Positions 15,132-35,383 of a DNA stretch of 44,525 nt are shown piece by piece. The stretch is taken from NCBI RefSeq assembly GCF_009725235.1, contig NZ_WJFC01000101.1:1-44525 (forward strand), written 5' to 3'. A program made the position numbers and the translations under genes. This DNA comes from Scytonema sp. UIC 10036 (GTDB taxonomy: Bacteria > Cyanobacteriota > Cyanobacteriia > Cyanobacteriales > Nostocaceae). Position 1 is the stretch's first letter, and the number at the start of each line of letters is the position of its first letter. The notes under the pieces are model-generated. The model ran no database searches, was not told where the DNA came from, and saw only the letters and a program-made list of their open reading frames with translations.

Positions 15132-15134
15132 GCT

Positions 15135-18100: not shown

Positions 18101-18227
18101 GTTAAAATATCCAAAAGGTTTTCCTTCAGTTATTTCACCTACTTATCTGTCCTTCTTAGATTACGAAAACAGTATCAAGCCGATCGCACGCTTATCTATA
18201 GATTGTAACGAAAAACCTGGTAATTAA
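15135..18227 (+). CDS. AAA_35 ATPase, coiled-coil, TM, TPR and C-terminal GUN4 domain protein
   Basis: 1030 residues. Order: AAA-like ATPase (about 1-350; Walker A 'LNSRQSGKSSLRVR' near 40-53, Walker B 'IVIFIDEIDSVL' near 133-144, 'TGGQPFLTQKLCQF'); winged-helix-like region to about 400; coiled coil with two identical 20-residue units ('EEIAALEKEAALERERKDRE'); one TM helix near 482-502 ('VVLIVAVLGAAISVIVA'); a second long coiled coil; TPR-like helices near 695-780; and a GUN4 domain from about 830 ('WREADVKTHRLMLVIASREK', 'TIDSLWVRYSEGIYGFSVQ', 'GHLPTP'). GUN4 binds protoporphyrin and Mg-protoporphyrin in chlorophyll synthesis; fused to NTPases its role is unknown. Related proteins usually end in WD40 or TPR repeats. 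It is translationally coupled to the EAD1 ATPase upstream. The product is probably membrane-anchored, with the ATPase and GUN4 regions on opposite sides of the TM segment in sequence. Confidence 0.85.
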   Translation: MLDEYQFSGSLPEEATTYVTREADRELYQGLTAGKFCYVLNSRQSGKSSLRVRIMRRLRDNGVECAAIDLSAGGIQKVPPEQWYADLIDTLIDSFGLDLEFGDWWSENQLNSLVTRFRLFLEEILLVEIQKNIVIFIDEIDSVLSLNFPTDDFFAFIRSCYNQRVANPIYNRLTFCLLGVASPSNLIEDKKRTPFNIGKAITLKGFQLHEVDSLEKGLYGKYSNPHAVMKDILHWTGGQPFLTQKLCQFMVEESLQDNPRTVKQVVRSRILENWESQDEPEHFRTIRDRILRDEQRAGYLLELYQQIRVAEEKAEITADDTLEHSELQLSGLVVRQQNQLRVYNPIYREIFDKIWIETQLRNLRPYSDNFRFWRTSDGKDESRLLRGKALQDALEWAFDKSLNYQDREFLAASQAKEKQEEIAALEKEAALERERKDREEEIAALEKEAALERERKDREAIEKRNQVLTKGYTKAQQLISIGKVVLIVAVLGAAISVIVARNQVQTAKDAEQRLKEANSKAGIAKDELEQARQEVSAARLEARRTEKNARVIQKYAKDAEGKLSSIRKSQQQAEALRKAAESEKAKAKHDALLALKTASDAKGELLVVRKNQQKAEEALKIAQQSEALANNKAQKAHREAETAQQRLTRIDNQAKNVSLLSELSGELHSKNMQEEADEAKRQLGLSYAIKENSKLQQALLLSGIAFAYQKLARSDEAITAIQDSLNLLEDKYVKNSPQEKEVRVYVLNLQGTLLKEQGDYQKAVKVYKEAFALLQFKTTKLYSFNQEIQVINQKNVEFLHWELIDLLQKIPDSHLLSQVRKSLIKHYYAEIEDSMKKENWREADVKTHRLMLVIASREKEGYLDSEQLNSFSCQHLQTIDSLWVRYSEGIYGFSVQKNIFTKLLNKDINKLKNLEFLDYVKFANSVKWSEEKKLNSEWNKDYFNLKSYDQFNFRGRTILDNSLKLDREEIRKIPGHLPTPPLFLHSPLLLKYPKGFPSVISPTYLSFLDYENSIKPIARLSIDCNEKPGN
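16391..16510 (+). repeat. Exact 60-bp in-frame tandem duplication
   Basis: Two identical 60-bp units (16391-16450 and 16451-16510) encode the repeated coiled-coil block EEIAALEKEAALERERKDRE. Being a multiple of three, it lengthens the coiled coil without breaking the frame. Confidence 0.95.
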
Positions 18228-18949: not shown

Positions 18950-19621
18950 CTAAGCTACTGTCAGAAGTGCTTGCTGAGATTTCTCTGCGAACAACAAAAC
19001 TGCTTCTTCGATGACAAAACGTCGCGGCTTCCCATTTTGTTCGCGAAGTTGTTCGACAACTAAACCTACTTTTTCCGAAAGTCTGGGTGGCTGGTATTCT
19101 CTACCATTACCGACATATCTCCATGGCGTTGGCTCTTTCTTGGGTTGACTCGCTTTATATTTCTTGGTTTGAGTTTGAATATCTTTCTGGGAAACCTGAC
19201 AATTGCAAGCTTTTTCCAGCACGGACTTGATAACCTCCAGTGGTGTCCGACCTGTAGCTAATTTGTAAAGCGCTGATGGCGAGAGGTGGCTACTGATTTG
19301 CTCGAGTTGTTTTGTAGTGAAGCTTCCAAGTATGGGTGCTAGTTTTAATAACTGGTTGGCAATACCTGATATCCATCCGAGAGAATTGGCCAGGGCTTGT
19401 TCATACTGTTTGGGCTTAAGTGTATCTTTGAGGAAAAGCAACAATTGCCCAATCTTGGCGGCTCCAAGTAGTATTGAAGGATTTGTGGAGCTAATCTCGC
19501 CGATGACTTCTTTTGTCAAATCATTACCGGGCTTGACGAGTCTACGGATAAGATATTGAACTTCTTCGGCAACTGTTTGTGAAAAATTGCCAGCAGGATT
19601 TGTTTCCGGTGCTTTAGTCAT
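18950..19621 (-). CDS. Paralog 1 of a predicted DNA-binding family (DUF3102-like plus RHH-like)
   Basis: 223 residues; ATG 19621 has GGAG ten bases upstream. I know no named family. Two regions can be described. Residues about 50-135 ('AAKIGQLLLFLKDTLKPKQY', 'LSPSALYKLATGRTPLEVIK') resemble the helical core of DUF3102-like plasmid and phage regulators. The C-terminal residues about 178-215 ('PPRLSEKVGLVVEQLREQNG', then 'KPRRFVIEEAVLLFAEK') follow the strand-helix-helix pattern of ribbon-helix-helix proteins. Between them lie a Cys pair (CNCQ) and a basic linker ('QTQTKKYKASQPKKEPTPW'). Together this suggests a DNA-binding regulator; this is inference. Copy 1 differs from copies 2-4 at scattered residues (for example PETNPAG, GNDLTK, NCQVSQKD). 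It is preceded by a leader frame and hairpin at 19645-19713. Confidence 0.65.
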   Translation of the reverse strand: MTKAPETNPAGNFSQTVAEEVQYLIRRLVKPGNDLTKEVIGEISSTNPSILLGAAKIGQLLLFLKDTLKPKQYEQALANSLGWISGIANQLLKLAPILGSFTTKQLEQISSHLSPSALYKLATGRTPLEVIKSVLEKACNCQVSQKDIQTQTKKYKASQPKKEPTPWRYVGNGREYQPPRLSEKVGLVVEQLREQNGKPRRFVIEEAVLLFAEKSQQALLTVA

Positions 19622-19644
19622 GCTAAGATCACTCCAGAATTAAA

Positions 19645-19713
19645 TTAATCAAATTTTATTTTTCTAAGGAAGTGCTCCTGAGCAACATGAGCGCTTCCTT
19701 TTTCACTCATCAT
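19645..19713 (-). promoter_or_regulatory. Leader reading frame and hairpin upstream of paralog 1
   Basis: Minus strand: CCGGAG-TATTGT-ATGATGAGTG opens a 22-codon frame (MMSEKGSAHVAQEHFLRKIK..) ending 23 bases before the paralog ATG. Inside it, GGAAGCGCTC (19698-19689) pairs with GAGCACTTCC (19677-19668) apart from one C/A mismatch. All four copies keep both the frame and the stem, which suggests translational attenuation or an operator for the RHH-like product. Confidence 0.5.
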
Positions 19714-19811
19714 ACAATACTCCGGAAATTTTTCTTGTAAAATTTTCTGTAGAATTTTAGGTTGGCTCGGAGAAAAAACACTAGCTTGACACCCCACGTC
19801 CTCCTTACCAC

Positions 19812-20459
19812 TTACACCTGTACAACCAAGCTAACAATTCGCTTCATTATTCGCAAAACTTCATATAGCTCGTTGTTCCTACGCTTTGAAAGCGTAAACT
19901 TGTCTGACAGATCGTAAGAGTGCGTTTGCCGATTCAGCTTAATAAAAATATAGTCTTCACCAGTCGTTATCATTCCAAAAACTGGCATTTCTAAGTTAGG
20001 GTGTGCCATCATGTAAGCTAAAGTTTGCCCTAGAGCCTGCATAACACTCAAACCATAACGCTTCGATTCAATCAACACTACCCAGAGTCGATTTTGCACA
20101 ACTAAAGCGTCAATAAATCCTTCTAATACTGGTTCTTCTTTGCCTCCGTTTTCAATTTCGACATTCACCAATTTCTCACTCTGAATCTTAAAAGGTGGAT
20201 CGCACAAACCCATTAATTCCAGTAGTGGAGAAAGCATAATAATATTGACAGTACCTTCTGTGATTGAACCGTCTGCTGCATAATAGAGGTAGCGACTCTT
20301 CAGCCGATTCAAAGTTGCTTTTTCGCTGTCAGTAAGTTCGGGTAAATCCTCAAACCATTCTGTGAAAAATTCTGGGTTAGCAGTCTGGCTTAAATTGAAC
20401 TTGGCGTGCGCCTCGTTCAGGTTAGTAATCGCTTTGATAATCCCAACTGTTTCAACCAT
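19812..20459 (-). CDS. PD-(D/E)XK nuclease-like protein (HsdR N-terminal domain type)
   Basis: 215 residues. The core 'EGFIDALVVQNRLWVVLIES' followed by K gives the D-x(n)-E-x-K nuclease signature (D in GFID, then ESK), and the following helix 'MQALGQTLAYMMA' is the Q-containing helix found in the N-terminal domain of type I restriction subunits and related stand-alone proteins. 'FGMITTGEDYIFIKL' continues the fold. There is no helicase domain, so it is a stand-alone protein, either an orphan nuclease or a truncated restriction subunit. Its length matches stand-alone cyanobacterial homologues. It sits between paralogs 1 and 2 on the same strand, separated from them by repeat-rich DNA, and may have entered between copies. 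Confidence 0.72.
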   Translation of the reverse strand: MVETVGIIKAITNLNEAHAKFNLSQTANPEFFTEWFEDLPELTDSEKATLNRLKSRYLYYAADGSITEGTVNIIMLSPLLELMGLCDPPFKIQSEKLVNVEIENGGKEEPVLEGFIDALVVQNRLWVVLIESKRYGLSVMQALGQTLAYMMAHPNLEMPVFGMITTGEDYIFIKLNRQTHSYDLSDKFTLSKRRNNELYEVLRIMKRIVSLVVQV

Positions 20460-20676
20460 AAGTTATCATTTCTATATCTTTAATCATAGATTGTATTATC
20501 TGAGCAAATAGTTTAGTTCCGTGTCGTGGTTTCCCCTACCTGTTCGCTGACGAGTTTTAATTCATGCGAGCGGTTCCGCTCTCATTTCTGAGTCACTCAA
20601 AGCTCAAGAACTTGATTCTTGGCAATTCACAAAAGCCACCAGACAAGAGTATTGACTCTAAATTTTTTCAACAAAG

Positions 20677-21348
20677 CTAAGCCACTGTAACAAAAGCTGG
20701 CTGAGATTTCTCTGCGAGCAACAAAACCGCTTCTTCGATGATAAAACGTCGTGGTTTCCCATTTGGCTCGCGAAGTTGTTCGACAATTAAACCTACTTTT
20801 TCCGAAAGTCTGGGTGGCTGGTAGTCTCTACCATTACCCACATATCTCCATGGCGTTGGCTCTTTTTTGGGTTGACTGGCTTTATATTTCTTGGTTTGAG
20901 TTTGAATCTCTTTCTGAGAAACCTCACAATGGCAAGCTTTTTCCAGCACGGACTTGATAACCTCAACAGGTGTTCGACCTGTAGCTAATTTGTACAGCGC
21001 TGACGGCGAGAGGTGGCTACTGATTTGCTCGAGTTGTTTTGTGGTGAAGCTTCCCAGTATGGGTGCGAGTTTTAATAACTGGTTGGCAATACCTGATATC
21101 CATCCGAGAGAATTGGCCAGGGCTTGTTCATACTGCTTGGGCTTGAGTGTATCTTTGAGGAATAGCAACAATTGCCCAATTTTGGCGGCTCCAAGTAACA
21201 TGGAGGGATTCGTGGATCTAATCTCGCCGATGACTTCTTTGGTCAAATCTTTACCAGGCTTGACGAGTCTACGGATAAGATATTGAACTTCTTCGGCAAC
21301 TGTTTGTGAAAAATTGCCAGCAGGATTTGTTAGGGATGCTTTAGTCAT
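20677..21348 (-). CDS. Paralog 2 of the predicted DNA-binding family
   Basis: 223 residues, identical in protein sequence to paralog 3. Same layout as paralog 1: DUF3102-like helical core, Cys pair (CHCE), basic linker, RHH-like C-terminus ('PPRLSEKVGLIVEQLREPNG'). It differs from paralog 1 at positions such as SLTNPAG, IRSTNPSMLL and REPNGKPRRFII. The ATG at 21348 has the same GGAG spacing, and the leader frame is at 21375-21434. Downstream of the stop (20540-20676) two hairpins are shared with the other copies: CAAGAA-TCAAG-TTCTTG and GAGCGG-AA-CCGCTC. Confidence 0.65.
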   Translation of the reverse strand: MTKASLTNPAGNFSQTVAEEVQYLIRRLVKPGKDLTKEVIGEIRSTNPSMLLGAAKIGQLLLFLKDTLKPKQYEQALANSLGWISGIANQLLKLAPILGSFTTKQLEQISSHLSPSALYKLATGRTPVEVIKSVLEKACHCEVSQKEIQTQTKKYKASQPKKEPTPWRYVGNGRDYQPPRLSEKVGLIVEQLREPNGKPRRFIIEEAVLLLAEKSQPAFVTVA

Positions 21349-21374
21349 GCTAAGATCACTCCAGAATTATAATT

Positions 21375-21434
21375 TTAATTTTTTTCCGAGGAAGTGCTCT
21401 TGCAGTCAACACGAGCCCTTCCTTTTTCACTCAT
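21375..21434 (-). promoter_or_regulatory. Leader reading frame and hairpin upstream of paralog 2
   Basis: ATG 21434 opens a 19-codon frame (MSEKGRARVDCKSTSSEKN) that stops 26 bases before the paralog ATG. The stem GGAAGGGCTC / GAGCACTTCC is kept with one mismatch at the same position as in copy 1. The peptide sequence differs from that of copy 1 after an indel, while the stem is preserved, so the RNA or DNA structure seems to matter more than the peptide. Confidence 0.45.
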
Positions 21435-21544
21435 GATACAACAGTCCGGAAATTTTTCTTGTAAAATTTTCTGTAGAATTTTAGGTTTGCTGGGAGAAAA
21501 AAGCGTCACAACATAAGGCGAAAGCAAGGGAGATTTTCTAGAAA

Positions 21545-21640
21545 CAAATCAGGTAGGGGAAACCACGACGTTTTGTCATGGAAGAGGCGGTGTATGTTGC
21601 TAGCAGAGAAATCTCAGCAAGCACTTTTCATAGCCGCGCT
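21545..21640 (+). pseudogene. Inverted 3' fragment of the paralogous gene
   Basis: On the plus strand this reads GKPRRFVMEEAVYVASREIS, matching the conserved C-terminus GKPRRFVIEEAVLL... of the family, then shifts frame. It lies opposite in orientation to the intact genes, inside the 1208-bp unit. Confidence 0.65.
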
Positions 21641-21884
21641 CCTACTGTCTTCCGTAATCGCTTCTTTATTGCTTTTGACAATATAGCGTTTCCTAGTCTG
21701 TTGAGGTACAAATTTATCAGCGTCCATCAGCTACAGGGTGCGGTTAACTGTTCGCTGACGAGTTTTAATTCATGCGAGCGGTTCCGCTCTCATTTCTGAG
21801 TCACTCAAAGCTCAAGAACTTGATTCTTGGCAATTCACAAAAGCCACCAGACAAGAGTATTGACTCTAAATTTTTTCAACAAAG

Positions 21885-22556
21885 CTAAGCCACTGTAACA
21901 AAAGCTGGCTGAGATTTCTCTGCGAGCAACAAAACCGCTTCTTCGATGATAAAACGTCGTGGTTTCCCATTTGGCTCGCGAAGTTGTTCGACAATTAAAC
22001 CTACTTTTTCCGAAAGTCTGGGTGGCTGGTAGTCTCTACCATTACCCACATATCTCCATGGCGTTGGCTCTTTTTTGGGTTGACTGGCTTTATATTTCTT
22101 GGTTTGAGTTTGAATCTCTTTCTGAGAAACCTCACAATGGCAAGCTTTTTCCAGCACGGACTTGATAACCTCAACAGGTGTTCGACCTGTAGCTAATTTG
22201 TACAGCGCTGACGGCGAGAGGTGGCTACTGATTTGCTCGAGTTGTTTTGTGGTGAAGCTTCCCAGTATGGGTGCGAGTTTTAATAACTGGTTGGCAATAC
22301 CTGATATCCATCCGAGAGAATTGGCCAGGGCTTGTTCATACTGCTTGGGCTTGAGTGTATCTTTGAGGAATAGCAACAATTGCCCAATTTTGGCGGCTCC
22401 AAGTAACATGGAGGGATTCGTGGATCTAATCTCGCCGATGACTTCTTTGGTCAAATCTTTACCAGGCTTGACGAGTCTACGGATAAGATATTGAACTTCT
22501 TCGGCAACTGTTTGTGAAAAATTGCCAGCAGGATTTGTTAGGGATGCTTTAGTCAT
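21885..22556 (-). CDS. Paralog 3 of the predicted DNA-binding family (duplicate of paralog 2)
   Basis: 223 residues with the same protein sequence as paralog 2, at an offset of exactly 1208 bases, with identical flanks. Everything said of paralog 2 applies. The absence of any visible difference implies a very recent duplication, ongoing gene conversion, or an assembly artefact. Confidence 0.65.
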   Translation of the reverse strand: MTKASLTNPAGNFSQTVAEEVQYLIRRLVKPGKDLTKEVIGEIRSTNPSMLLGAAKIGQLLLFLKDTLKPKQYEQALANSLGWISGIANQLLKLAPILGSFTTKQLEQISSHLSPSALYKLATGRTPVEVIKSVLEKACHCEVSQKEIQTQTKKYKASQPKKEPTPWRYVGNGRDYQPPRLSEKVGLIVEQLREPNGKPRRFIIEEAVLLLAEKSQPAFVTVA

Positions 22557-22582
22557 GCTAAGATCACTCCAGAATTATAATT

Positions 22583-22642
22583 TTAATTTTTTTCCGAGGA
22601 AGTGCTCTTGCAGTCAACACGAGCCCTTCCTTTTTCACTCAT
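22583..22642 (-). promoter_or_regulatory. Leader reading frame and hairpin upstream of paralog 3
   Basis: Identical to the leader of paralog 2 (offset 1208): 19-codon frame from ATG 22642 and the GGAAGGGCTC / GAGCACTTCC stem. Confidence 0.45.
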
Positions 22643-22752
22643 GATACAACAGTCCGGAAATTTTTCTTGTAAAATTTTCTGTAGAATTTTAGGTTTGCTG
22701 GGAGAAAAAAGCGTCACAACATAAGGCGAAAGCAAGGGAGATTTTCTAGAAA

Positions 22753-22848
22753 CAAATCAGGTAGGGGAAACCACGACGTTTTGTCATGGAAGAGGCGGTG
22801 TATGTTGCTAGCAGAGAAATCTCAGCAAGCACTTTTCATAGCCGCGCT
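22753..22848 (+). pseudogene. Inverted 3' fragment of the paralogous gene (second unit)
   Basis: Same plus-strand fragment as at 21545-21640, duplicated with the 1208-bp unit; it again reads GKPRRFVMEEAVYVASREIS before losing frame. Confidence 0.65.
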
Positions 22849-23092
22849 CCTACTGTCTTCCGTAATCGCTTCTTTATTGCTTTTGACAATATAGCGTTTC
22901 CTAGTCTGTTGAGGTACAAATTTATCAGCGTCCATCAGCTACAGGGTGCGGTTAACTGTTCGCTGACGAGTTTTAATTCATGCGAGCGGTTCCGCTCTCA
23001 TTTCTGAGTCACTCAAAGCTCAAGAACTTGATTCTTGGCAATTCACAAAAGCCACCAGACAAGAGTATTGACTCTAAATTTTTTCAACAAAG

Positions 23093-23764
23093 CTAAGCCA
23101 CTGTAACAAAAGCTGGCTGAGATTTCTCTGCGAGCAACAAAACCGCTTCTTCGATGATAAAACGTCGTGGTTTCCCATTTGGCTCGCGAAGTTGTTCGAC
23201 AATTAAACCTACTTTTTCCGAAAGTCTGGGTGGCTGGTAGTCTCTACCATTACCCACATATCTCCATGGCGTTGGCTCTTTTTTGGGTTGACTGGCTTTA
23301 TATTTCTTGGTTTGAGTTTGAATCTCTTTCTGAGAAACCTCACAATGGCAAGCTTTTTCCAGCACGGACTTGATAACCTCAACAGGTGTTCGACCTGTAG
23401 CTAATTTGTAAAGCGCTGACGGCGAGAGGTGGCTACTGATTTGCTCGAGTTGTTTTGTGGTGAAGCTTCCAAGTACGGGCGCTAGTTTTAATAACTGGTT
23501 GGCAATACCTGATATCCATCCGAGAGAATTGGCCAGGGCTTGTTCATATTGTTTGGGCTTGAGTGTATCTTTGAGGAATAGCAACAATTGCCCAATCTTG
23601 GCGGCTCCGAGTAGTATGGAGGGATTTGTAGAGCTAATCTCGCTAATGACTTCTTTGGTCAAATCTTGACCAGGCTTGACGAGTCTACGGATAAGATATT
23701 GAACTTCTTCGGCAACTGTTTTTGAAAAATTTGCAGCAGGATTTGTTTCCGGTACTTTAGTCAT
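23093..23764 (-). CDS. Paralog 4 of the predicted DNA-binding family (mosaic copy)
   Basis: 223 residues from ATG 23764, the position equivalent to the other copies; the frame is open to ATG 23851, which would add 29 residues from the leader. The 3' part (up to about 23400) equals paralogs 2 and 3, and the 5' part looks more like paralog 1 (PETNPA, EISSTNPSILL), with its own changes (NPAANFSKT, GQDLTKEVIS). It is therefore a recombinant of two lineages. Domains as in paralog 1. It is the first of the array in transcription order, about 5 kb from the others' end, and has its own leader. Confidence 0.65.
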   Translation of the reverse strand: MTKVPETNPAANFSKTVAEEVQYLIRRLVKPGQDLTKEVISEISSTNPSILLGAAKIGQLLLFLKDTLKPKQYEQALANSLGWISGIANQLLKLAPVLGSFTTKQLEQISSHLSPSALYKLATGRTPVEVIKSVLEKACHCEVSQKEIQTQTKKYKASQPKKEPTPWRYVGNGRDYQPPRLSEKVGLIVEQLREPNGKPRRFIIEEAVLLLAEKSQPAFVTVA

Positions 23765-23851
23765 GCTAAGATCGCTCCAGAAATAAGTAAATTTGATTGA
23801 TTTTTTGGGGAAGTGCTCATAAGCAACATGAGCGCTTCCTCTTTCACTCAT
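23765..23851 (-). promoter_or_regulatory. Leader of paralog 4, in frame with the gene
   Basis: ATG 23851 (MSERGSAHVAYEHFPKKSIK..) has no stop before the paralog ATG, so here the leader frame is continuous with the gene, unlike copies 1-3. The stem GGAAGCGCTC / GAGCACTTCC is kept with the same C/A mismatch. Translation from the leader would give a 252-residue product. Confidence 0.45.
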
Positions 23852-24748: not shown

Positions 24749-27700
24749 CTATTCTGCTTGAAACCACTGGTAACAAACTAGCTGAATATCTTCTTCATCA
24801 ATGATTTCTGATGGATTTACTTCTCTTTCTTCCTCAATTTCATGATATTGATCTTGATCGACAAACAATTCGTCTAACGCAGCAACTAGTGTATGTAAAT
24901 CTCTGTTTTCAAGGTATTTTTCCCAATTGGCTTTTATGTCGCGCTCGTAGACGCGAAGGTTAACTGTGGTAATAACCTTTAATACTCGCTGCTTCATCTC
25001 TTGATATGTCGGTTCTTCATTTAAAGGTTTCAACTCCGTCAAAGCGTGATAGATTTGCTGTAAACGTTTATTCAGCTTAGGTTTTAATTGGCTACCAGCT
25101 TGTTGCTTTTTGAAGTAAGCCATCAAGTTACGTACAGCCCCTTCCAAAATCTCAAATATAGAGTTGTCAAACTTTACTGGAAGCAGTTTCTCTGGAAGCG
25201 GAAAGTCTTCCGCTCTACATTTTAGCCAATTAAAGATTTTACGCTTGTCGGTAATTCGTTTGTCTTGATTAAGTGAAATTACACCATTAATACGAGGGTA
25301 AAATTGCCAGAAGTGTTTATCTTTAGCACGAAATGCCAGAAATATTCCCCCATCTTTTACTTCAGGGATATAAAAATGGCGCGTGCTGTGAATTCCTAGT
25401 GGAATTTCTTCAGCTGCTTGCTCACCTTCTTGTTGGAAAAATTCTAGTAGGGGTAAACGCATTTCCTCTAGAGAAGCCAAATCAGCAGCTTGTTCAAGTT
25501 CCTCTAAAATTGCTTCTTTATCTGCATCGCTAATTGCTTTCTTAAGTCGGTATAATTCTTCCAATGATTTCTCGGAAATGATTTCTCCTAAAACACTAGC
25601 ATCTAATCCAACTTTCTCATTAATCATAGCAATTCGACTTTGTAATCGCCGCACCAATCCGAGCAAAGCTTCCAAACCTTCTTCGGGAAAGCAGTTATAA
25701 ATCAATAGTTCTTCATAGTTAGTGCCTAAACGGTCAATCCGACCAGCACGCTGAATCATTCTTACTGGGTTCCAATGCAAGTCATAGTTAATTAAAACAC
25801 CTGCATCTTGTAAATTTTGACCTTCAGATAAAACGTCGGTGCAAATAAGAATGTCAATTTCCTGTCTGTGAAAATTTTGCTGTTCTTGCTGACTTTGGTT
25901 GTTAGCTTTGGGTGCAAATTGCTTAACTTTTTCTTCTCTTTGCTTACCAGAAGTTTCACCAGTTATTTTGTCAATAATTGGTAAATGAGCATCTATTGAC
26001 ATCTCTTTTAACCACTCATCATCTGCTAGCAACTGTTTATACAAATAATCGGTAGTATCTTTGAAATAGCTAAATACCAAAATTTTTTGGCCTTTAAGTT
26101 CGTTCTTTAGCAATTGTTTAAACTCTACTAGCTTGAGATCGGAGTCTTGTCCTGTTTCTACATTTTTTTGAATTTGCAATAGTTGATAATGAATACTTTT
26201 GAGGATATTAAGGTCTGATTGAATCCGAGCGCTTAACTCATCAATTTGGTAATCGTTCGGGTCAATTTCATCCAAAGATTCAATTAAGTCATCAACAGAA
26301 ATATTATCTTCTTCATCTGTCTCTGCTGCTAGAATATTGCGAAAATTTTTGCTGTCTAGCAGCTTACCCTGTTTTAGCAAAGTAAAAAATCTTTCTTGAA
26401 AATCTTTCTGCTTACAGATACTGCTTTCAAATGCAATTAGAGAACTTTCTAGCCGTTTTAGATATAGCGACTTCATTAAAGCGACAAGGGCATCATTCCG
26501 CAGTATGTCATCATTTTCTTGCTTAGTTTTTTGCTGTTTAAAAGCTTTGATGTTATATGGAGCTAAATGTAATTCATCAATTTGATTGGCAATTCTGGCG
26601 TAAAGCCCCTGGAAAATAGCCTCAAAATTGTAGGTGAATTGTTTTAATTGGCGCTTAGGGAAGCTAATTTTTTGACCACTAATGTAAATGTCTTCCCCTG
26701 CTAACTGTCGCTTGATAACATCTTGGCGAGAGCGTCTTACCATTGTTTGAAACAGCAGTTCAGTAATTTCTGCCTCACCTTTTGCTAACTCTTTAAAATA
26801 AGTTTTGAGATTGGGTATTCCCCATTCTTGATAATATCTTTCTGTGTTCCGTGTCAGCAGTAAAATTTGATGGTAAAGGTCATAGATGCTGGTGTTTAAT
26901 GGTGTTGCAGTTAGCAACAATACTCGCTTATTTCGCTTGCCGCTACCAATTAATTTCTGTAAATTTATGTATCTATTTGTTGCACTATTACGAAAGTTAT
27001 GAGACTCATCCACAACAATGATGTCATGCTTGTTGTAACGACGGATGTCAAAGGTTTTACGACTAATTTCTTCCTGAGAAACTACATCTGCCTTAATTCC
27101 AAATTCATCTAGCTTTTTCAACCACACTAAATGTCGTAATTGGGCAGGGCATACAACCAAGGCACGAGGTACATAACCAGGACGCTTGTCTTTGATCAGA
27201 TAGTGGTCAAGTACCCGCAAACCGATGTAAGTTTTGCCCAAGCCAACTGCATCTGCTACTATGCAACCTCGGTGACGCTCTAATAATCTGACAGCACGTT
27301 CAAAACCTTCTTGTTGAAAACTAGCCAGTTCTAAACTTGTGCGAATGCTTGTATCTGGTAAGGTGTCTTCTTTAAAAAGTTCGTAAAGTGCTTTTAAAAA
27401 CACTTGATAGGGTGTATAAGCTTTACTACCGAATTTAGAGGCATTTAAAGCGTCAATTAGTTTGTCTTTGTAGTCACAATCGACACTTTTGTCTTTCCAG
27501 AATTTTTCAAACCAATTTTGGCGAAGGTCTTGGGCTATTTCTAATGTTTTATTTAATACATTTAATTCTGTATTGCCACTCAAGCCAGCTGGTGTAAAGT
27601 TACTGGAGCCAATAATACTATAATTATCAAAAACATAAGCTTTGGCATGTAGAAACTGGACTCCTTCACCAATCGCTCCGTAAAGTCTCACATGAATATG

Positions 27701-28030
27701 GTCTTGCTGTAGGTATGCAATTAAACGGTCAATTTGCTGTTTATATTTCAACTTATATTTTTCTGCTTCTAACTGTTTTTGTACATCATGGTGAAAATAG
27801 CTGGTTAAGTCAATGCGATCGCTCTCTGCTGGTCGAATTGTGGGGTCACGACCAATCAGTAGACGTAGGTTAGTTAAAGCATTAAAAGCTGCTTCTAGCC
27901 GTATCCACGCCTCTATTCGGAAAAATCCAGTAGCAATGTCTAGGTTTGTTTGGCTCTCATGTAAAATGAGCGATCGCAACACTTCTTCCAGTTTATGTTG
28001 TTGATTGTCTATGTAATCGGGGAGAGGCAT
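24749..28030 (-). CDS. PLD-type nuclease fused to SNF2/SF2 helicase
   Basis: 1093 residues. Residues 1-190 are a phospholipase-D-like domain with a single HKD motif ('FLHAKAYVFDNYSIIGSSNF', near 126-145), the pattern of dimeric PLD nucleases. Residues about 240-800 are an SF2/SNF2-type ATPase: Walker A 'ADAVGLGKTYIG', 'VVDESHNFRNSATN' (DESH box), 'LLLTATPLNTSIYDLYHQIL', 'DILICTDVLSEGQNLQDAG' and motif VI 'RMIQRAGRIDRLGT'. A helical C-terminal region of nearly 300 residues follows. It lies 162 bases downstream of the sigma-ATPase gene on the same strand, so the two are likely one transcript. PLD-helicase fusions occur in bacterial defence loci; a DNA-targeting role is inference. Start ATG 28030 lacks a strong ribosome site. 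Confidence 0.85.
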   Translation of the reverse strand: MPLPDYIDNQQHKLEEVLRSLILHESQTNLDIATGFFRIEAWIRLEAAFNALTNLRLLIGRDPTIRPAESDRIDLTSYFHHDVQKQLEAEKYKLKYKQQIDRLIAYLQQDHIHVRLYGAIGEGVQFLHAKAYVFDNYSIIGSSNFTPAGLSGNTELNVLNKTLEIAQDLRQNWFEKFWKDKSVDCDYKDKLIDALNASKFGSKAYTPYQVFLKALYELFKEDTLPDTSIRTSLELASFQQEGFERAVRLLERHRGCIVADAVGLGKTYIGLRVLDHYLIKDKRPGYVPRALVVCPAQLRHLVWLKKLDEFGIKADVVSQEEISRKTFDIRRYNKHDIIVVDESHNFRNSATNRYINLQKLIGSGKRNKRVLLLTATPLNTSIYDLYHQILLLTRNTERYYQEWGIPNLKTYFKELAKGEAEITELLFQTMVRRSRQDVIKRQLAGEDIYISGQKISFPKRQLKQFTYNFEAIFQGLYARIANQIDELHLAPYNIKAFKQQKTKQENDDILRNDALVALMKSLYLKRLESSLIAFESSICKQKDFQERFFTLLKQGKLLDSKNFRNILAAETDEEDNISVDDLIESLDEIDPNDYQIDELSARIQSDLNILKSIHYQLLQIQKNVETGQDSDLKLVEFKQLLKNELKGQKILVFSYFKDTTDYLYKQLLADDEWLKEMSIDAHLPIIDKITGETSGKQREEKVKQFAPKANNQSQQEQQNFHRQEIDILICTDVLSEGQNLQDAGVLINYDLHWNPVRMIQRAGRIDRLGTNYEELLIYNCFPEEGLEALLGLVRRLQSRIAMINEKVGLDASVLGEIISEKSLEELYRLKKAISDADKEAILEELEQAADLASLEEMRLPLLEFFQQEGEQAAEEIPLGIHSTRHFYIPEVKDGGIFLAFRAKDKHFWQFYPRINGVISLNQDKRITDKRKIFNWLKCRAEDFPLPEKLLPVKFDNSIFEILEGAVRNLMAYFKKQQAGSQLKPKLNKRLQQIYHALTELKPLNEEPTYQEMKQRVLKVITTVNLRVYERDIKANWEKYLENRDLHTLVAALDELFVDQDQYHEIEEEREVNPSEIIDEEDIQLVCYQWFQAE

Positions 28031-28192: not shown

Positions 28193-31100
28193 TTATTCTC
28201 CAATAGCTTCGAGGATATGACCAATGACTGGCTCTACACGCCAATATTCCTGACCGTCTTTCTTACCTACGGGGTTAGCTAGGCTAAGTAGATCTGCCCA
28301 TTTTAAAACTTTATTCACAACTTCTGTCTGGAGGTCATGAATAAAATCTACTAAATCATTAAGAGACACTTTGCCATCAGGAGACATTTGACACAATTGA
28401 GCTAAAACTCGTAATACTTTTTGTTGTTCGTAAAGGTCAATTCCCAAATGTTCTGTAGTAAAATCAAGTGCTTCTTGGCTGTCAGTCAATGAATCTTTGA
28501 TTCCTTCTAAATGAAATTCCCAACGGTGTATGTCAGATTTGGAATTTTGGTAGAAACGGTGCAGTAATGTTGACCAATTTCCTGTCCCTACAGTGATTTT
28601 TTCTCGACTATTTTTATCACTGGGAAAATTACAATCTTGTAGCCATTGCCGTAGAGCTATATCATGCCAAGGTTTTAAACTCAAAGTGGTTATTCTGTTA
28701 ACAGGATTCCATTCTGTGCTATTATCACAGATTAAGTTCCATGCTATTTGAGGGTCAGCAATAAAGACTATTCGCACAAAGGAATTGTTTGATCTCAACC
28801 TTCCAAGCTGTGCAATTACTTCATCAATCCAGTGATGATTCCACTTGGCTAAAGCAGACACAAAAATGATTGTTGTACCTTCTTTTTGGCGATTACGAAT
28901 TAGACGAGTCAAGCTTTGGGTAAATTCATCTAAAGATGAGATGTTATCCAAATATTTATCAAAATATTCCTTTTTCTTACTCACAACTGATTTGACATAA
29001 AGATTCAAGTCATCAAGTCCTGCTGCCTGAGAACCAAATATAATAGAGACTCCGTTTTCAGTCAGCAGCAGTTTTGATTCTTGCTGGGCTGTTAGGGGAC
29101 TGCGCCTAAAGTCTTCCTTTATACCAATAGCTGAACGAAAAGTTGCGGGTTCATATTCTAGAGGTATTTCACGGGGCTGCAAAAGTGTTGCTTCTATTTC
29201 TTCTGGGGTTCCCATAAGGAGTAATACATTGGGACTTCTAAGGGTAAATCCACCCGTGCTGGTAACACGTAAAACTCCTAATCCGACCATTTCTTCTAGT
29301 AAAACTAGAATTTCGTCTGATGATAAACCTTGGAAACCTTCGTACCACCATGTTAGTATTTCATTACGAATCCAAGACACATTAAACCCATTTACCATGC
29401 CATTTTCGCTCTCTATAGAGCCATAGGCAATTGTGTAGGCAATCACTTCGTAGCGCTGATCTAATTGCAGAGTCCAGATAAAGCGATCGCGAATAGCTTT
29501 ACGTAAGTCCTGGTTGTTGTAAGCGTCATCAACTTGCTGCGAAGTAATGATGTAAGGTAAACTATCTTGGGTATCAAAATTAACGACATCAGGATTGGTA
29601 ATATGCCTGAGCAATTGTTGACAATAAAGCTGTATCAGGCTGGGATAATAGTTAGTTTGTGAGAGAATACGTGTAACTAAATCTGGAGATTCAAAGCGAT
29701 AGCCAATGCTAGCAAATGGTCGTTCAATTAAGGCTCTCGCCTCCCGCATTTCACCATTATTTAACAGTGGACCAATACAAATGGGTTCTCCCAAATGCGC
29801 TAAAGGATGGTTTTCCAATTTGGTAGTACGCTGGACATTGTGCAAGCCAGCAAATACTACTTTAAAACGGCGATTTGTTCTGTCCATTAATCCTTTCAAA
29901 CGAGCAGAACGAATAAAATCTCCTTTTTCGTCATTATCTGCTGTGCGTTTTTTGCCATCGGCTTCCAAAAATTTATCTGCTTCATCTAGTAACAACAGAA
30001 TCTGGCGATTTGTATCATGATTCAGCCAAATTTCAATTTCCTTTAGCAGTTCTTCTGCTTTTACTCGGCTAGATTTAGTATCAGAACATACCCCGATTTT
30101 TCTAAATTCTGAAGCAAGCAAATTCCAAATTTCATCAATATCCCTATCGTAACCAATTGCTTCTGATTTAAGGTCAAGCCAAAGTGCAATTTTCCCTTCA
30201 TTTGGTGAGTGAAAAGTACGCTCCACAAAACGCAGCAAAACTGTTTTACCTAACTGTCGTCCCCCATAAATAAAACAAGAACCCGTAGGCTTAATAATCG
30301 AGTCTCGTTCTCGTTCCCGTCCGTAAAACATTTCTGGGGGGACAAACCCTGAAGTAGTTGTGTATGGTTCTAAGAAAGTGAAGGGCAAAGTACACTCAAA
30401 TAATATTGGTAGACGTGCGCCCCTTTCTCCACAAAGATAGAAGATGACAGCATCGTCAATAACGGTAAAGGTACGACGGCGCTCCCGACACAACCGGGCA
30501 AGGTCTCTACGCCTTTTTTCTGACATCCGTCCAAAATGAAACACTAGTACTGCAGAGCCATGAGAAGTATGTCCAACAGCATTAAGAATTTCTTCTTCTG
30601 AAGGTCTGTCCCATACACAGAGAATGCGATAACGACCTTTTGCCTCTGAACCAAAGGCGGGCATTGAACAACTGTTTTTTTCTTGAATCGGCTCAGTGAT
30701 GGCATCAATCCAGGTATTATTCCCAACTTTTTTGATAACAATATTGTCAGTATTAAAACCGAGGCTGCTCAGAATTTGACTAGTATCTTTATCTGTGATT
30801 GCTTGCTTTCTTCCTTTAACTGCAAACCAAGTATCGAGCATTTTAGATGCTTGTTTTGCCTGGGCACCGGGTACCTGCCGCATATAAAGAGGTCCAATAC
30901 TGATGCGTTGGGAAATTTTATTTACTAGTTCGCGTTGCTGCTCGTGTCGCTTGTTTGGAATTCTGTCAACGCGCTCAAGTACGTCTTCTATAGAAGAATA
31001 ATTCTCCTTAAAGAAGTCTTTAAAGGCATCTCTCCTATTTTCTGGTTCGGGTATTTGTCTTCCCTGCTGCACCATATCTATATATTCATTAGCAGTCAGG

Positions 31101-34100
31101 ACATCCCCTGTATCTAACACACTGCTAATTCGAGCATATGCAGAATTTTCTTCACCTATTTCTTGAATTAGTTTACTCCTCGTGTCATTAATGCTTTCCT
31201 GTCGTTTAGAGTTTATCGCCTGACTGATATCTAAAAGGTGCGAATTTTTTTCATAAAAACGTAAAGTTTTTTTGGTAGAATTTTCTATTTTTTCTATCTG
31301 AGATGCATAATCTAATCGCTCGGTTTCTCTGAGCAAACCCAAAGCAACATTATCTTCTAGTAATTTTCTACTACTTTTAACTGCTTTCTCTAATTCATCA
31401 CGATGAATTTTAATACTAGATTTACGTTGCTGCTCCAATTTATCAATATCAATTGATTTCTCTGCATAGGCTCGAAGATACTCAATAATACGTCCGGTTG
31501 CCTCATGGTCTTTACAATTACACCTTGCCTGGAAAGCTTGTTCCCAGTTGAAATTATGTTCCTCACAAAAAGTAATTATTTCCTTCACGAACGAATTAGG
31601 ACTTTTGACTTCAGGTTGCCAATTAGAATCCATAGGTAGTGAAGGTATTTTGAGCAATTCTGCATTGAGGAGATATTTTAGATCGGGTTCTACTGTTGGT
31701 AATGTGGCATTTGGTTCAAAAAGATTGCTAATATTTTCGATCGCTTTTTTGCAACAATAAACTCCAGCTTTTAGCAAGACTGATGAATTGCTATCAAAAG
31801 CATTCAGTTGTTGCAAGACAGAAGTGTGAAGACTTGCCAAATCTTGTTGCAATTGTTGAGCTTGACTGTGGTCGTAATTATTACCATTGCTCATGCGAGG
31901 TTCTTGTAGAGAAATCCACTGACGGGCAAAATCAACGGCTTCCCGAATGTGCTGGCGAATCTGATTGAGAGCTACACCAGTGATGGTATCACTACTACCA
32001 CGAATTAAACCTAGTTCGCGCTGTTTGCGTTTGACTTCATCATTAATTTGGGTTTCAGAAGACAATTGACTCACATAATTTTTAACAACATCTAGCTTGC
32101 TCAAATCGTTTTGTTGAATTGGCAATATGAGGGAGTAAATAAGTTGATTTGGCTTTATCCACTCATTCCAAACTGCCTTGGCAGGAGCATAAATCATCTT
32201 TAAACGTGGTGCTTGAGTCCACCAACCTTCTACTTGCTTACGTAAAGCAGTAACATCGGCTTCCCACACCGTCTGATTTCTGACTGTTTTAATGGCTGTG
32301 GTATCTAAGGCTAAACCTTGGTTTCCAAAGTTAGCAATGGTTTGGCAGTACCGATAAAGCTGACTCAGACCTTCTCCTAATCTTAGTGAGAAAAGTATTG
32401 CTGGAGCGTGAGTATTTGGGGCTAGTAATGCTGGACGGAGAGCAGCCGTGGCTAAAAGCAAACTAACAGCTTGATTCCACTCATTATCTCCATCAACAAA
32501 ATAGTTATTGCTAAGGTTAGTAAAATCGCCTCTGAGAATGTTAGCAATTTCTCCCAGTCCGAAATCATAGCGTACATGGCAACCTAAAATAACTCCCCGA
32601 ATTAGTCCTGATGGTAGACTTGGCTGTAAATTGGGGTAGAGTTCTTCTAAGCTATGTGCTAAATAATAGGCAAAACAAAGTTGATTTTCTTTAAGTAGTT
32701 GCCAAATTTGGTTACGAAGGGCTAGTGGTTCTTCTTCGCTAATATCATCGCTAATAGATGTAGTATTTTGTTGCTCTATATCTTCTAGCGTTAACTGATA
32801 TTGGGGCTGTCCTTCTTCTGTATCCTCTTCTTCAAAGGCATTCTGGTTAATTATAAGTGACTGCTCTGGAATTATAATTTCTTTGTTAGCTAGTTTTTCT
32901 GGAGTCGTGATTAATGTTTCGGTTGCCTGATATTTTCCTATAACTTGATTGTTAGGTGATGCAATTTCTGGGTTTAGCTGTAGCATATTTAATTGCTCTG
33001 TAGTTACTTGTTCTACAGGCAATTTTTCTGTTTGATGAGGTTCCACATAGAAGGTTTGAGCGTCAGGTTTAATCTTTGAAGGCAAGGCTAAACCTTGTAT
33101 AAATTCTTCTCTAACAGTCAGTTTTCCTCTTACTGCTGCCATAGCCAAAGTTCTGCCAAAGGATTCGCCTACAGAATCCTGAAGGTCTGCCAAATTTTCA
33201 TCGTCTAAATCTTGCAAATTTGAAGTTAGTATTAGTAATTTCGAGAAGGGATGATTGCCATCAGCTAAATTTTGGATATCGGGATGTTCACATCCTTGGG
33301 ATTGAAAAATGGCTTGATAGAGTTCGTTAGCTCTTGCTTGACATTCTACTAAAGGTTGAAAATCGTTTTCAACCCGATGAACAATTGATAAAACACGCTG
33401 TAAAATCGTTAAAGCTTGATGGACTAATTGCTCGCCCTCTGACTTTTTCTTTTCCAACTCGGCTATAGTTTGCAGCAAAGATTCGATGTCATGAGAGGAA
33501 AGAATTTCGCTCTTCTTAGGAACAGGGGATACTTCAGAGTTAACTGCTAATTCCAGGCTTCTATCACGCAATGTTACAAAATTTAATCGGCATTTGCCTA
33601 GTTCTAAAATTAATTCTTCGGCTAGTGGGATACCAGGGTTTTGTAACTCTCTAGCTGCCTTGGTTAATTTTTTACTTAATTGATAAAATTCCTGTTGTAA
33701 AGAAGCAAGTTGTTCAAGTAAGTTTTTAGAATTATATTCCATAGTCTGAATCGTTTGACTTAAGTTAATTTCTTTCACAACAATGATGCCAAGCTTGTTC
33801 TCTTGTTCGAGGTTATGGTTTACGTTTGTTTCTTCTAACTTGACTCTGTTTGTTGAAGCATTTGATAAAACAAAAGTTTTTTGTGTAGGAGCAATAATCG
33901 GAGAAATCAATTTTTGCGCTCTGCTTATTCTGAGTTTTTCACCATGTAATTGACTGATTGTTTTATTGATAATTTGACGAATGCGCTCGCGGGTTAAACC
34001 AAATTGCTTACCAATTGCCTCCAAAGTTTTCTCGTATCCATCGTCTACACCATATCGCATCTCTAAAATTTGGCGTTCTCGCGGTTGAAGTATTGCTAAG

Positions 34101-35383
34101 ATACTTTCTAATTCTTCTCGTAAACAAGTTTTACTTAACCAAGCTTCTGGCGTATCTCCATCGAATTCAATAACATCTGTTAATGCATTATCTTCTTCAC
34201 TACCAATCGGTGTATCTAAAGAAATTATTGGTAAAGCAGATTTAACAATAGATTGTAAATATTCATTTGTTATATCCAAACTAGCAGCAATTTCTTTTTG
34301 TTTGGGTATACGACCAATTTCTTGAGAAAGTTGCTTGGTTGTTTTTTTTATTAAGGAAATTTTTTCCCACAGATGAACTGGTAGGCGAATGGCGCGGGAT
34401 TGATTATTAATCGCTCGTTTTATACCCTGTCTAATCCACCAAGTTGCATAGGTTGATAGTTTGTAACCTTTTGTATAATCAAATTTCTCAACTGCTTTAA
34501 TTAATCCCAAATTCCCTTCTTGAATTAAATCTAAAAAATCAACTCCTCGATTTATATAATTCTTAGTAATGGAAACAACTAACCGTAGATTTGCCTGTAT
34601 TAGCTTATTTTTAGCAAATCGCCCATTTGCTATTCGTTCACGCAGCAGTGATACGGATATACCAAATTCTAAGGCTAACTCTTCATCTTGAGGATTACGT
34701 TGATGTTGTTTTTGTAATCGTTGTCTAATGTTTTCTAACTCTTCTAACTGTGCAACTTGACGAGCAAGAAAAATTTCTTCTGACGCCTTTAACAATTTAA
34801 TTCGACCAATTTGTTGCAGATACCAGCGAATTGAATCTTGGGTTTCGCATTGCTTTTGAAGTGCTCTAAATCTAAGTGCTTCGTGTTGAATGCGGTGAAG
34901 CGTTTGGGGGTCAAGTGAAAAAGCAGCAATTTTTTCTAATCGATTTAGGTCATGATAACTAGGGTCAGCAGTGTTTATGAAATATTTGTTAATGTTGAGC
35001 CTAAAATTCATTTGAGCATCAAAGCTCATGCGAGGACTGACGAGCATTAACTGGCTGTAGTCCCTTGTGCATAATAATAAAAAGTAAGACAATCGCTGAC
35101 AGAGGCTTTTGGCAATAGCTTGCATTCTATAAGAAACTGCATCAAGCGAAAGCCATTCTGACGGTTTAAGTTGAAACAGAAGAACCTGTAACTCTGCATT
35201 TCCTTGGTTTGCAATTAAGTAGACCTGATTAACAGCTTGAGTACTTCCCTGTGAAAGCTCTAAATCTGTAACATCCAGCAATTGGCAAATGGTTTTGTAC
35301 CCAAGTTTTTGAAATATTGCTGCTACTTGTTCTGGTTTTTTTATGTTTTTTACATCATCTAGGTGTAGTAATCTGTCAGGCAT
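28193..35383 (-). CDS. Giant fusion of a sigma-70 factor and a STAND-like ATPase
   Basis: 2396 residues in one uninterrupted frame. Residues 1-180: a mixed alpha/beta domain ('VAAIFQKLGYKTICQLLDV', 'LQVLLFQLKPSEWLS', 'FLLLCTRDYSQLMLVSPR') like the N-terminal domain of some type IIG methylase and ATPase proteins. Residues 183-485: a complete sigma-70 core, region 1.2 'DSIRWYLQQIGRIKLL', region 2 'NLRLVVSITKNYINRGVDFL' and 'STYATWWIRQGIKRAI', region 3 'RLPVHLWEKI', region 4 'ILEMRYGVDDGYEKTLEAIG' and 'FGLTRERIRQI'. About 490-1540: coiled coils and helical solenoid. About 1560-1690: an alpha/beta domain ('YRILCVWDRPSEEEI', 'ERGARLPILF'). Residues about 1690-2000: ATPase, Walker A 'FIYGGRQLGKTVLLRF', Walker B 'ILLLLDEADKFLEADG'. 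Residues 2050-2300: a second, degenerate NTPase-like core. It is probably co-transcribed with the PLD-helicase. Start ATG 35383 has no clear ribosome site. Confidence 0.88.
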   Translation of the reverse strand: MPDRLLHLDDVKNIKKPEQVAAIFQKLGYKTICQLLDVTDLELSQGSTQAVNQVYLIANQGNAELQVLLFQLKPSEWLSLDAVSYRMQAIAKSLCQRLSYFLLLCTRDYSQLMLVSPRMSFDAQMNFRLNINKYFINTADPSYHDLNRLEKIAAFSLDPQTLHRIQHEALRFRALQKQCETQDSIRWYLQQIGRIKLLKASEEIFLARQVAQLEELENIRQRLQKQHQRNPQDEELALEFGISVSLLRERIANGRFAKNKLIQANLRLVVSITKNYINRGVDFLDLIQEGNLGLIKAVEKFDYTKGYKLSTYATWWIRQGIKRAINNQSRAIRLPVHLWEKISLIKKTTKQLSQEIGRIPKQKEIAASLDITNEYLQSIVKSALPIISLDTPIGSEEDNALTDVIEFDGDTPEAWLSKTCLREELESILAILQPRERQILEMRYGVDDGYEKTLEAIGKQFGLTRERIRQIINKTISQLHGEKLRISRAQKLISPIIAPTQKTFVLSNASTNRVKLEETNVNHNLEQENKLGIIVVKEINLSQTIQTMEYNSKNLLEQLASLQQEFYQLSKKLTKAARELQNPGIPLAEELILELGKCRLNFVTLRDRSLELAVNSEVSPVPKKSEILSSHDIESLLQTIAELEKKKSEGEQLVHQALTILQRVLSIVHRVENDFQPLVECQARANELYQAIFQSQGCEHPDIQNLADGNHPFSKLLILTSNLQDLDDENLADLQDSVGESFGRTLAMAAVRGKLTVREEFIQGLALPSKIKPDAQTFYVEPHQTEKLPVEQVTTEQLNMLQLNPEIASPNNQVIGKYQATETLITTPEKLANKEIIIPEQSLIINQNAFEEEDTEEGQPQYQLTLEDIEQQNTTSISDDISEEEPLALRNQIWQLLKENQLCFAYYLAHSLEELYPNLQPSLPSGLIRGVILGCHVRYDFGLGEIANILRGDFTNLSNNYFVDGDNEWNQAVSLLLATAALRPALLAPNTHAPAILFSLRLGEGLSQLYRYCQTIANFGNQGLALDTTAIKTVRNQTVWEADVTALRKQVEGWWTQAPRLKMIYAPAKAVWNEWIKPNQLIYSLILPIQQNDLSKLDVVKNYVSQLSSETQINDEVKRKQRELGLIRGSSDTITGVALNQIRQHIREAVDFARQWISLQEPRMSNGNNYDHSQAQQLQQDLASLHTSVLQQLNAFDSNSSVLLKAGVYCCKKAIENISNLFEPNATLPTVEPDLKYLLNAELLKIPSLPMDSNWQPEVKSPNSFVKEIITFCEEHNFNWEQAFQARCNCKDHEATGRIIEYLRAYAEKSIDIDKLEQQRKSSIKIHRDELEKAVKSSRKLLEDNVALGLLRETERLDYASQIEKIENSTKKTLRFYEKNSHLLDISQAINSKRQESINDTRSKLIQEIGEENSAYARISSVLDTGDVLTANEYIDMVQQGRQIPEPENRRDAFKDFFKENYSSIEDVLERVDRIPNKRHEQQRELVNKISQRISIGPLYMRQVPGAQAKQASKMLDTWFAVKGRKQAITDKDTSQILSSLGFNTDNIVIKKVGNNTWIDAITEPIQEKNSCSMPAFGSEAKGRYRILCVWDRPSEEEILNAVGHTSHGSAVLVFHFGRMSEKRRRDLARLCRERRRTFTVIDDAVIFYLCGERGARLPILFECTLPFTFLEPYTTTSGFVPPEMFYGRERERDSIIKPTGSCFIYGGRQLGKTVLLRFVERTFHSPNEGKIALWLDLKSEAIGYDRDIDEIWNLLASEFRKIGVCSDTKSSRVKAEELLKEIEIWLNHDTNRQILLLLDEADKFLEADGKKRTADNDEKGDFIRSARLKGLMDRTNRRFKVVFAGLHNVQRTTKLENHPLAHLGEPICIGPLLNNGEMREARALIERPFASIGYRFESPDLVTRILSQTNYYPSLIQLYCQQLLRHITNPDVVNFDTQDSLPYIITSQQVDDAYNNQDLRKAIRDRFIWTLQLDQRYEVIAYTIAYGSIESENGMVNGFNVSWIRNEILTWWYEGFQGLSSDEILVLLEEMVGLGVLRVTSTGGFTLRSPNVLLLMGTPEEIEATLLQPREIPLEYEPATFRSAIGIKEDFRRSPLTAQQESKLLLTENGVSIIFGSQAAGLDDLNLYVKSVVSKKKEYFDKYLDNISSLDEFTQSLTRLIRNRQKEGTTIIFVSALAKWNHHWIDEVIAQLGRLRSNNSFVRIVFIADPQIAWNLICDNSTEWNPVNRITTLSLKPWHDIALRQWLQDCNFPSDKNSREKITVGTGNWSTLLHRFYQNSKSDIHRWEFHLEGIKDSLTDSQEALDFTTEHLGIDLYEQQKVLRVLAQLCQMSPDGKVSLNDLVDFIHDLQTEVVNKVLKWADLLSLANPVGKKDGQEYWRVEPVIGHILEAIGE

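Follow-up and report, generated by a model that had tools for sequence, protein, structure and literature searches.

A sigma-70 module fused to a STAND-like ATPase beside an HKD-Snf2 nuclease

Within the window, i.e. the whole 44.5-kb stretch of Scytonema sp. UIC 10036 DNA that was analysed, a single, real reading frame encodes a 2396-residue protein, followed 162 bp downstream by the gene for an HKD nuclease joined to an Snf2 helicase (Table 1). The original prediction of an uninterrupted frame with a sigma-70 factor lodged inside a STAND-like ATPase was confirmed, as was most of its domain reading: Pfam matched sigma regions 1.2, 2, 3 and 4; the P-loop ATPase has intact Walker motifs (Walker A, GGRQLGKT, at residue 1707; Walker B, LLLLDEAD, at residue 1796), both invariant in alignment A1 (n = 15); and the second NTPase-like core is a degenerate NTPase with a CED-4/NLR-like fold, whose sequence reads without a Walker A lysine. 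Modelling predicts a SigA-like fold for the sigma segment and an NB-ARC/CED-4-type (STAND/NLR) fold within the 2396-residue protein. The long middle part is less conserved and helical by eye. In the partner, the HKD, GLGKT and DESH motifs are intact.

Table 1 Features of the locus and of its surroundings in the window
Feature	Coordinates	Strand	Basis
N-domain/sigma-70/STAND-like ATPase gene, 2396 aa	28193..35383	-	Frame and homologues
N-domain N_A, residues 1-177	34853..35383	-	Common to Eco57I-type DNA methyltransferases
Sigma-70 regions 1.2 to 4, residues 183-479	33947..34837	-	
Long middle part, residues 548-1555	30719..33742	-	Alignment A1, dN/dS
Small alpha/beta part before the ATPase, residues 1556-1680	30344..30718	-	AlphaFold model, lower confidence
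First NTPase, residues 1681-2059	29207..30343	-	Walker motifs; Pfam AAA_22 below cut-off
Second, degenerate NTPase, residues 2085-2396	28196..29131	-	CED-4/NLR-like fold
Partner gene, HKD nuclease and Snf2 helicase, 1093 aa	24749..28030	-	Pfam PLDc_2, SNF2-rel_dom, Helicase_C; PADLOC C3a139
Partner, HKD domain	27497..27964	-	
Partner, SNF2 domain	26642..27334	-	
Partner, Helicase_C domain	25724..26122	-	
N6/N4 DNA methyltransferase, 326 aa	11591..12571	-	
Two further STAND-type genes	13788..18227	+	
Four copies of a 223-aa gene	18950..23851	-	
Two of these copies, identical DNA	20677..21348 and 21885..22556		

Elsewhere in the window lie four near-identical copies of a 223-aa gene (92-100% protein identity, family unassigned), two of them identical at the DNA level; the one copy scanned gave no Pfam or PADLOC match. 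Two more STAND-type genes encode an EAD1-AAA_35 protein (447 aa) and an AAA_35-TPR-GUN4 protein (1030 aa), the latter with a PADLOC PD-T4-6 match on its C-terminal part. This region of the window looks like a defence island.

The fusion recurs among homologues

A search with residues 500-2396 retrieved 605 homologues. Among the best 120, sigma and ATPase share one chain in 62, the ATPase stands alone in 55, and three carry the sigma and end before the ATPase cut used. Part of the 55 ATPase-only entries are late-start versions of fused genes (P0057 in P0060, P0067 in P0069), and some class-B genes are annotated without their sigma part. Fusions of a sigma with a STAND-like protein are widespread in cyanobacteria; sigma-less relatives also occur in Proteobacteria, Acidobacteria, Planctomycetes, Paenibacillus and others. 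The original prediction had named the same architecture in other genomes as support and, as grounds for giving it up, a missing stop or frameshift at the sigma boundary, or homologues in which the parts are always separate genes. The architecture was indeed seen elsewhere and its recurrence speaks against a frame error, while separate forms do exist alongside fused ones.

Truncated or broken copies (L013/L150, L105, the L126 methyltransferase, L129, L134), together with the sigma-less class-B annotations and the late-start entry P0057, might suggest a chance fusion, an assembly error or a functionless, decaying gene. We consider this hardly credible, given the share of fused homologues, dN/dS values below 1 in every part tested and conservation across several genera. 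Because 62 of the best 120 homologues are fused, the fusion is not an artefact.

The ATPase has different partners at different loci

Scanning genomes for the ATPase gave 73 loci, 11 of them with a fused sigma. An HKD-Snf2 helicase adjoins in nine of these 11, lying downstream in two (L001, L002) and upstream with a 4-nt overlap in seven; the other two are cut by contig ends on the side or sides in question (L004 on both; L005 433 nt past the gene, its 8.2 kb of upstream sequence showing no helicase). At L013 the helicase adjoins a truncated ATPase, and L018 is a fragment. The sigma-less loci have instead a ~380-aa HEPN-like partner in 45 of 60 cases, as a separate gene in 44, nearly all directly downstream, and in the same frame in L073; at some loci lacking it, contig ends hide its place. 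Among the 43 partners that form the BLAST cluster, 41 have an RNxLxH-like motif near the C-terminus, as in HEPN proteins. The Pfam HEPN_Swt1 match was weak (E 0.07-0.09), and profile comparison found no relation between this partner and the C-terminal NTPases. Snf2-type matches occur near four sigma-less loci (L019, L022, L044, L048), that of L048 being another kind of Snf2. One ATPase core thus stands beside different effectors, HKD-Snf2 or the ~380-aa protein, depending on the locus. Comparing the state of the HKD aspartate with the sigma swap across loci gave no pattern.

Four alphaproteobacterial loci (L065, L066, L068, L071) have a ~2,000-aa helicase upstream of the sigma-less ATPase. That of L068 has DEAD, Helicase_C and MrfA zinc domains and is therefore of YprA/MrfA type.

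The N-domain is that of Eco57I-type methyltransferases

The N-terminus, which the original prediction had called restriction-methylase-like, is indeed the N-terminus of Eco57I-type DNA methyltransferases that adjoin the same helicase. A plasmid locus of Planktothrix agardhii (L104) encodes, in order, a DNA methyltransferase, a 64-aa gene (63 codons plus stop), a 434-aa gene, a separate 519-aa N-domain sigma (N-sigma) and an HKD-Snf2 helicase. The first 177 residues of this methyltransferase (domains Eco57I, MmeI-type, N6_Mtase and TaqI_C) are 42% identical to the N-domain of the window (E 4e-46). The 519-aa protein matches that of the window at 43% in the N-domain and 43% in the sigma (E 7e-67), and the two helicases are 65% identical.

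Among 386 cyanobacterial genomes, 13 hold the N-domain. The intact copies opened sit on a methyltransferase (G024, G172, G090), a sigma (G234, G192, G325) or a sigma-ATPase (G001, G079), G100 has a short methyltransferase piece, and the other genomes have fragments. The domain occurs in eight of 72,556 plasmid records. A helicase with 60% identity or more is present on seven plasmid records, in the context of an N-domain methyltransferase (five, one IS-interrupted), such a methyltransferase plus N-sigma (one) or N-sigma-ATPase (one). The system is mostly plasmid-borne or patchy. At L104, L126, L129, L157 and L159, an N-domain and sigma lie beside an HKD-Snf2 helicase without a STAND ATPase. 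L126 has a 71-residue N-domain piece and a C-terminal methyltransferase piece directly upstream of N-sigma and helicase. L105 shows a methyltransferase gene of which 302 codons are left, followed by an N-sigma that is likewise truncated, beside a transposase gene. Of the five separate N_A-sigmas, two lack a helicase: L105, where none lies within 39 kb of a broken locus, and L130, on a short contig. The gene sets in living genomes are hence methyltransferase and helicase; methyltransferase, separate N-sigma and helicase; N-sigma and helicase; and N-sigma-ATPase and helicase.

In the window itself, tblastn with two Eco57I-type methyltransferase queries (E 1e-3) found no such gene; the N6/N4 DNA methyltransferase 12 kb away has no N-domain and is unrelated. 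In structure searches for the fold of the N-domain, the 50 matches listed (VIA) all fell on the sigma part, and the Foldseek list consisted of sigma factors. The secondary structure of the model might allow a restriction-endonuclease-like topology for the N-domain, but the catalytic residues to be expected of one are not conserved. Between methyltransferase and HKD-Snf2 helicase, one sister operon on a Microcystis plasmid has a CBASS-type nucleotide cyclase and a SLATT gene (L136:15551-17018) and another a RES gene (L128), which fit a defence setting.

A second lineage and the origin of the sigmas

Microcoleus-type proteins have another N-domain of 232 aa (0.3% probability in profile comparison with N_A) and a helicase 27% identical to that of the window. 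In the best 120 of 691 relatives of this domain, 19 are sigma proteins; of the remaining 101, 99 have methyltransferase domains. The best of the listed relatives is 56% identical over 95%. Helicase matches at E <= 1e-30 occur in 54 of the 386 genomes, part of which were opened (20 regions, plus some earlier). The 17 opened loci of the two lineages, some of them contigs also among the 73 of the ATPase scan, hold a methyltransferase in six cases (G172, G024, G090, G114, G092, G040), a separate sigma in four (G234; G192, broken; G076, two copies; G219), a sigma-ATPase in four (G001, G079, G044, G359) and a truncated or unclear gene in three (G333, G218, G065). Nine other opened helicases adjoin a methyltransferase (L151-L155, L158, L161, L168, L169), and no partner was seen for L166 and L167. 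Class-C genes are known as proteins only.

In the 2.0-Mb genome G076, two different N-domain sigmas (758 and 526 aa) lie in tandem with one HKD-Snf2 helicase (L157:1253-5157, minus strand). Small HTH regulator genes lie upstream of sister operons, and the sigma might likewise do nothing except drive or tune its own operon. This is quite improbable: the window shows no recognisable small HTH gene upstream, a sigma that only regulates its own operon would hardly be expected inside a giant ATPase, and L157 has two different N-domain sigmas.

Sigma trees were built from 65 of 114 extracted sequences, then without six long rows and, for a larger tree, without five rows. The ATPase-fused sigmas (classes A-D) group with housekeeping SigA, not with group 2 sigmas, a placement that the larger tree leaves open. 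Clade tests, for groups that were chosen with the trees already in view and that involve long branches, rejected a single clade of all N-domain sigmas (AU p 0.019) and gave p 0.037 for the N_B sigmas (B, C and L157) as one clade; a single clade was not rejected for all ATPase-fused sigmas (p 0.0545), for the N_A sigmas (p 0.136) or for class A with L126, L104 and L105 (p 0.17). The two sigmas of G076 group with L178/L179 of their own lineage (100/99). An unrelated N-domain, a 27%-identical helicase and the rejection of one sigma origin indicate, as far as sequences allow, that a sigma took the place of the methyltransferase more than once.

In an ATPase tree (64 proteins, last 1000 residues each, quick method), the fused forms fall in one large clade (SH-aLRT 100) with four sigma-less members within. 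N-sigma modules are out of step with this tree at P0029, P0031, P0077 and P0110, which suggests that the module has been exchanged between ATPases. Between G001 and G002, dS is 0.72 for the fused sigma versus 2.14 for SigA, which points to horizontal transfer.

Sigmas may have been joined to nucleases or helicases on further occasions. P0134 (2021 aa) combines an SF1 helicase, an MTES_1575 nuclease and sigma regions 1.1-4, and P0128 (1607 aa) a DEAD helicase and a sigma. A 1390-aa protein (L194:9373-13545, minus strand) ends in a sigma-70 40% identical to that of the window, after an N-terminal membrane-like segment and, by eye, Ig-like repeats.

Constraint on the fused sigma

Conservation was counted in 38 chosen N-domain sigmas, 36 of which reach region 4.2, with the residue numbers and roles of E. 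coli sigma. The RNA polymerase (RNAP) contacts of region 2.2 are nearly invariant (D403 and Q406 38/38, E407 35/38), as are the promoter contacts of region 4.2 (E585, R588 and Q589 36/36, R584 35/36, R586 32/36). Melting and -10 residues are looser (Y425 19/38, Y430 36/38, W433 31/38, W434 37/38, T440 25/38), and T440 is changed in 12 of 13 class A sigmas. The dN/dS of the fused sigma is 0.17-0.29 in nine of ten class A pairs (0.52 in one near-identical pair) and 0.33-0.55 in 21 class B pairs, compared with 0.08-0.19 for the class A ATPase part. It is about tenfold that of SigA (0.02-0.03 in the five of ten pairs not saturated, dS being above 2). Within class A, dN is lowest in region 2 (0.05-0.08) and much higher (0.18-0.45) in region 4, a usual phage target. 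These rates match the expectation for a contested surface; relaxed constraint could also explain them.

Two invariant RNAP contacts combined with the loss of some melting residues are more in keeping with a sigma that docks on RNAP than with one that selects promoters in the ordinary way, while the well-kept -35 contacts leave room for a role in transcription. The original prediction had proposed a sensor that redirects transcription when triggered. Its fusion stands; the triggered redirection is possible and not favoured, in view of ATPase-free loci with N-sigma and helicase and of the loss of some melting residues. For such a switch, whose STAND-like ATPase would sense invasion and release the sigma to direct RNAP to promoters of its operon or a defence regulon, speak the complete regions 1.2-4, the predicted SigA-like fold and the kept -35 contacts. 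The looser melting and -10 residues (above all Y425, W433 and T440) weigh against it, and it leaves a methyltransferase N-domain on a sigma, beside a nuclease, unexplained; we hold it to be unlikely, if still worth considering.

The same -35 contacts would also suit a DNA reader, with sigma regions 2 and 4 as a target-recognition domain that brings the nuclease to promoter-like DNA, e.g. strong phage promoters. The sigma does occupy the former place of the methyltransferase and its TaqI_C specificity domain, which it would then replace. Such promoters abound in the host genome, however, and a primary sigma on its own, without RNAP, has little hold on promoter DNA, making this reading rather improbable.

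Relation to known defence systems

The kinds of components are already known, and MzaA of the MZA system (PMC9523054) is an earlier example of a sigma encoded in an anti-phage operon. There too a sigma-70 protein belongs to the operon, with another N-terminal part, whereas the partner in the window is an HKD-Snf2 protein. Membership was rejected: the MzaA match reached 277 bits against a cut-off of 800, on the sigma part only (PADLOC MzaA over residues 254-492). Type-2 BREX-related systems have an HKD endonuclease N-terminal to a Swi2/Snf2 helicase, along with methyltransferases (PMC12839542). The window likewise has HKD and Swi2/Snf2 helicase, and its sister operons an adenine methyltransferase, but the window holds a sigma-70 and STAND-like ATPase where the methyltransferase would be expected. 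In the available portion of that source, sigma is mentioned only for an HTH-like fold in BrxL. Pfam found no DUF499 or DUF3780 among the seven window proteins scanned.

Compared with restriction-modification by a methyltransferase and HKD-Snf2, the window keeps the nuclease gene and the methyltransferase N-domain without an Eco57I-type methyltransferase. Unlike STAND/NLR ATPases such as Avs, CED-4 and plant NLRs, the protein has an intact ORC/Cdc6-like NTPase before the degenerate STAND module, an N-terminal sigma and restriction N-domain, and its partner nuclease as a separate gene. The partner matches the candidate defence family C3a139 ('HKD+Snf2') of PADLOC (210 bits for the window protein; in Microcoleus the match runs end to end, at 439 bits), whose model makes no mention of a sigma or ATPase partner. 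The helicase and PglX-like methyltransferase logic of ARMADA/DISARM, as presented in PMC12458937, is similar, and at four sigma-less loci the ATPase gene closely follows a gene for a large helicase of MrfA/YprA or similar type; the window has no recognised YprA-type helicase gene and no PglX-like methyltransferase. DISARM membership was rejected (DrmD 135 bits, cut-off 610). Our search of the open PMC literature found no description of a sigma-70 replacing a restriction methyltransferase, or of its fusion to a STAND-like ATPase.

A proposed restriction-derived guard of RNA polymerase

We tentatively favour, at a little short of an even chance, a two-gene defence system derived from restriction, in which a sigma module docked on RNAP would control the nuclease. 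The ancestral form would have paired an Eco57I-type DNA methyltransferase bearing the N-domain with an HKD-Snf2 nuclease that translocates. A sigma-70 module on the same N-domain would later have taken the methyltransferase's place and is here fused to the STAND-like ATPase; we infer that the swap ran from methyltransferase to sigma. Once a restriction enzyme has lost its methyltransferase, something else must keep it in check, most simply a sigma module bound to RNAP. The N-domain would hold this module to the nuclease, and the sigma would dock on the beta-prime clamp of RNAP as SigA does. Since the locus lacks an Eco57I-type methyltransferase, the system would read the state of sigma and RNAP in place of DNA marks. 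A phage that inhibits, strips or replaces the host sigma, or seizes RNAP, would change the state of the module, upon which the ATPase would switch with ATP and license the nuclease to translocate and cleave DNA. In this way the fused sigma would stand guard, or serve as bait, for the primary sigma of the host. Sigma-70 is often targeted by phage proteins, according to PMC5053324, and such an attack would become costly if a copy of the sigma were coupled to a switch and a nuclease.

This guard reading is favoured by the N-domain and helicase common to the methyltransferase and sigma forms, by the second lineage, whose N-domain comes from another Eco57I methyltransferase group, and by the intermediates L104 (methyltransferase and sigma) and L126 (methyltransferase remnants). 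It also draws on the helicase beside nine of the 11 fused loci, the invariant D403 and Q406, the raised dN/dS with its variable region 4, the intact nuclease and helicase motifs, the STAND/NLR-type fold, the defence-type genes of sister operons and the plasmid-borne or patchy distribution. Against it count the promoter contacts of region 4.2, which are as well kept as the RNAP contacts, so that DNA binding or transcription may matter; the unrelated N6/N4 methyltransferase of the window, which could be a self marker; the N_A-sigmas of L105 and L130, for which no helicase was seen; and the single clade of all ATPase-fused sigmas, which was not rejected. The fuller version of the guard reading is more doubtful, and we put it forward as a possibility: that a self-marking methyltransferase was exchanged, more than once, for a host primary-type sigma serving as an integrated bait, with the STAND-like switch licensing the Snf2 motor. 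By analogy, such a bait would parallel plant NLRs with integrated decoys.

If true, infection would be told from health without DNA marks, by the state of the host transcription machine. Bacteria would have a parallel of integrated decoys, and sigma factors would gain a role outside transcription initiation, with a natural series leading from methyltransferase through methyltransferase plus sigma and sigma to sigma-ATPase.
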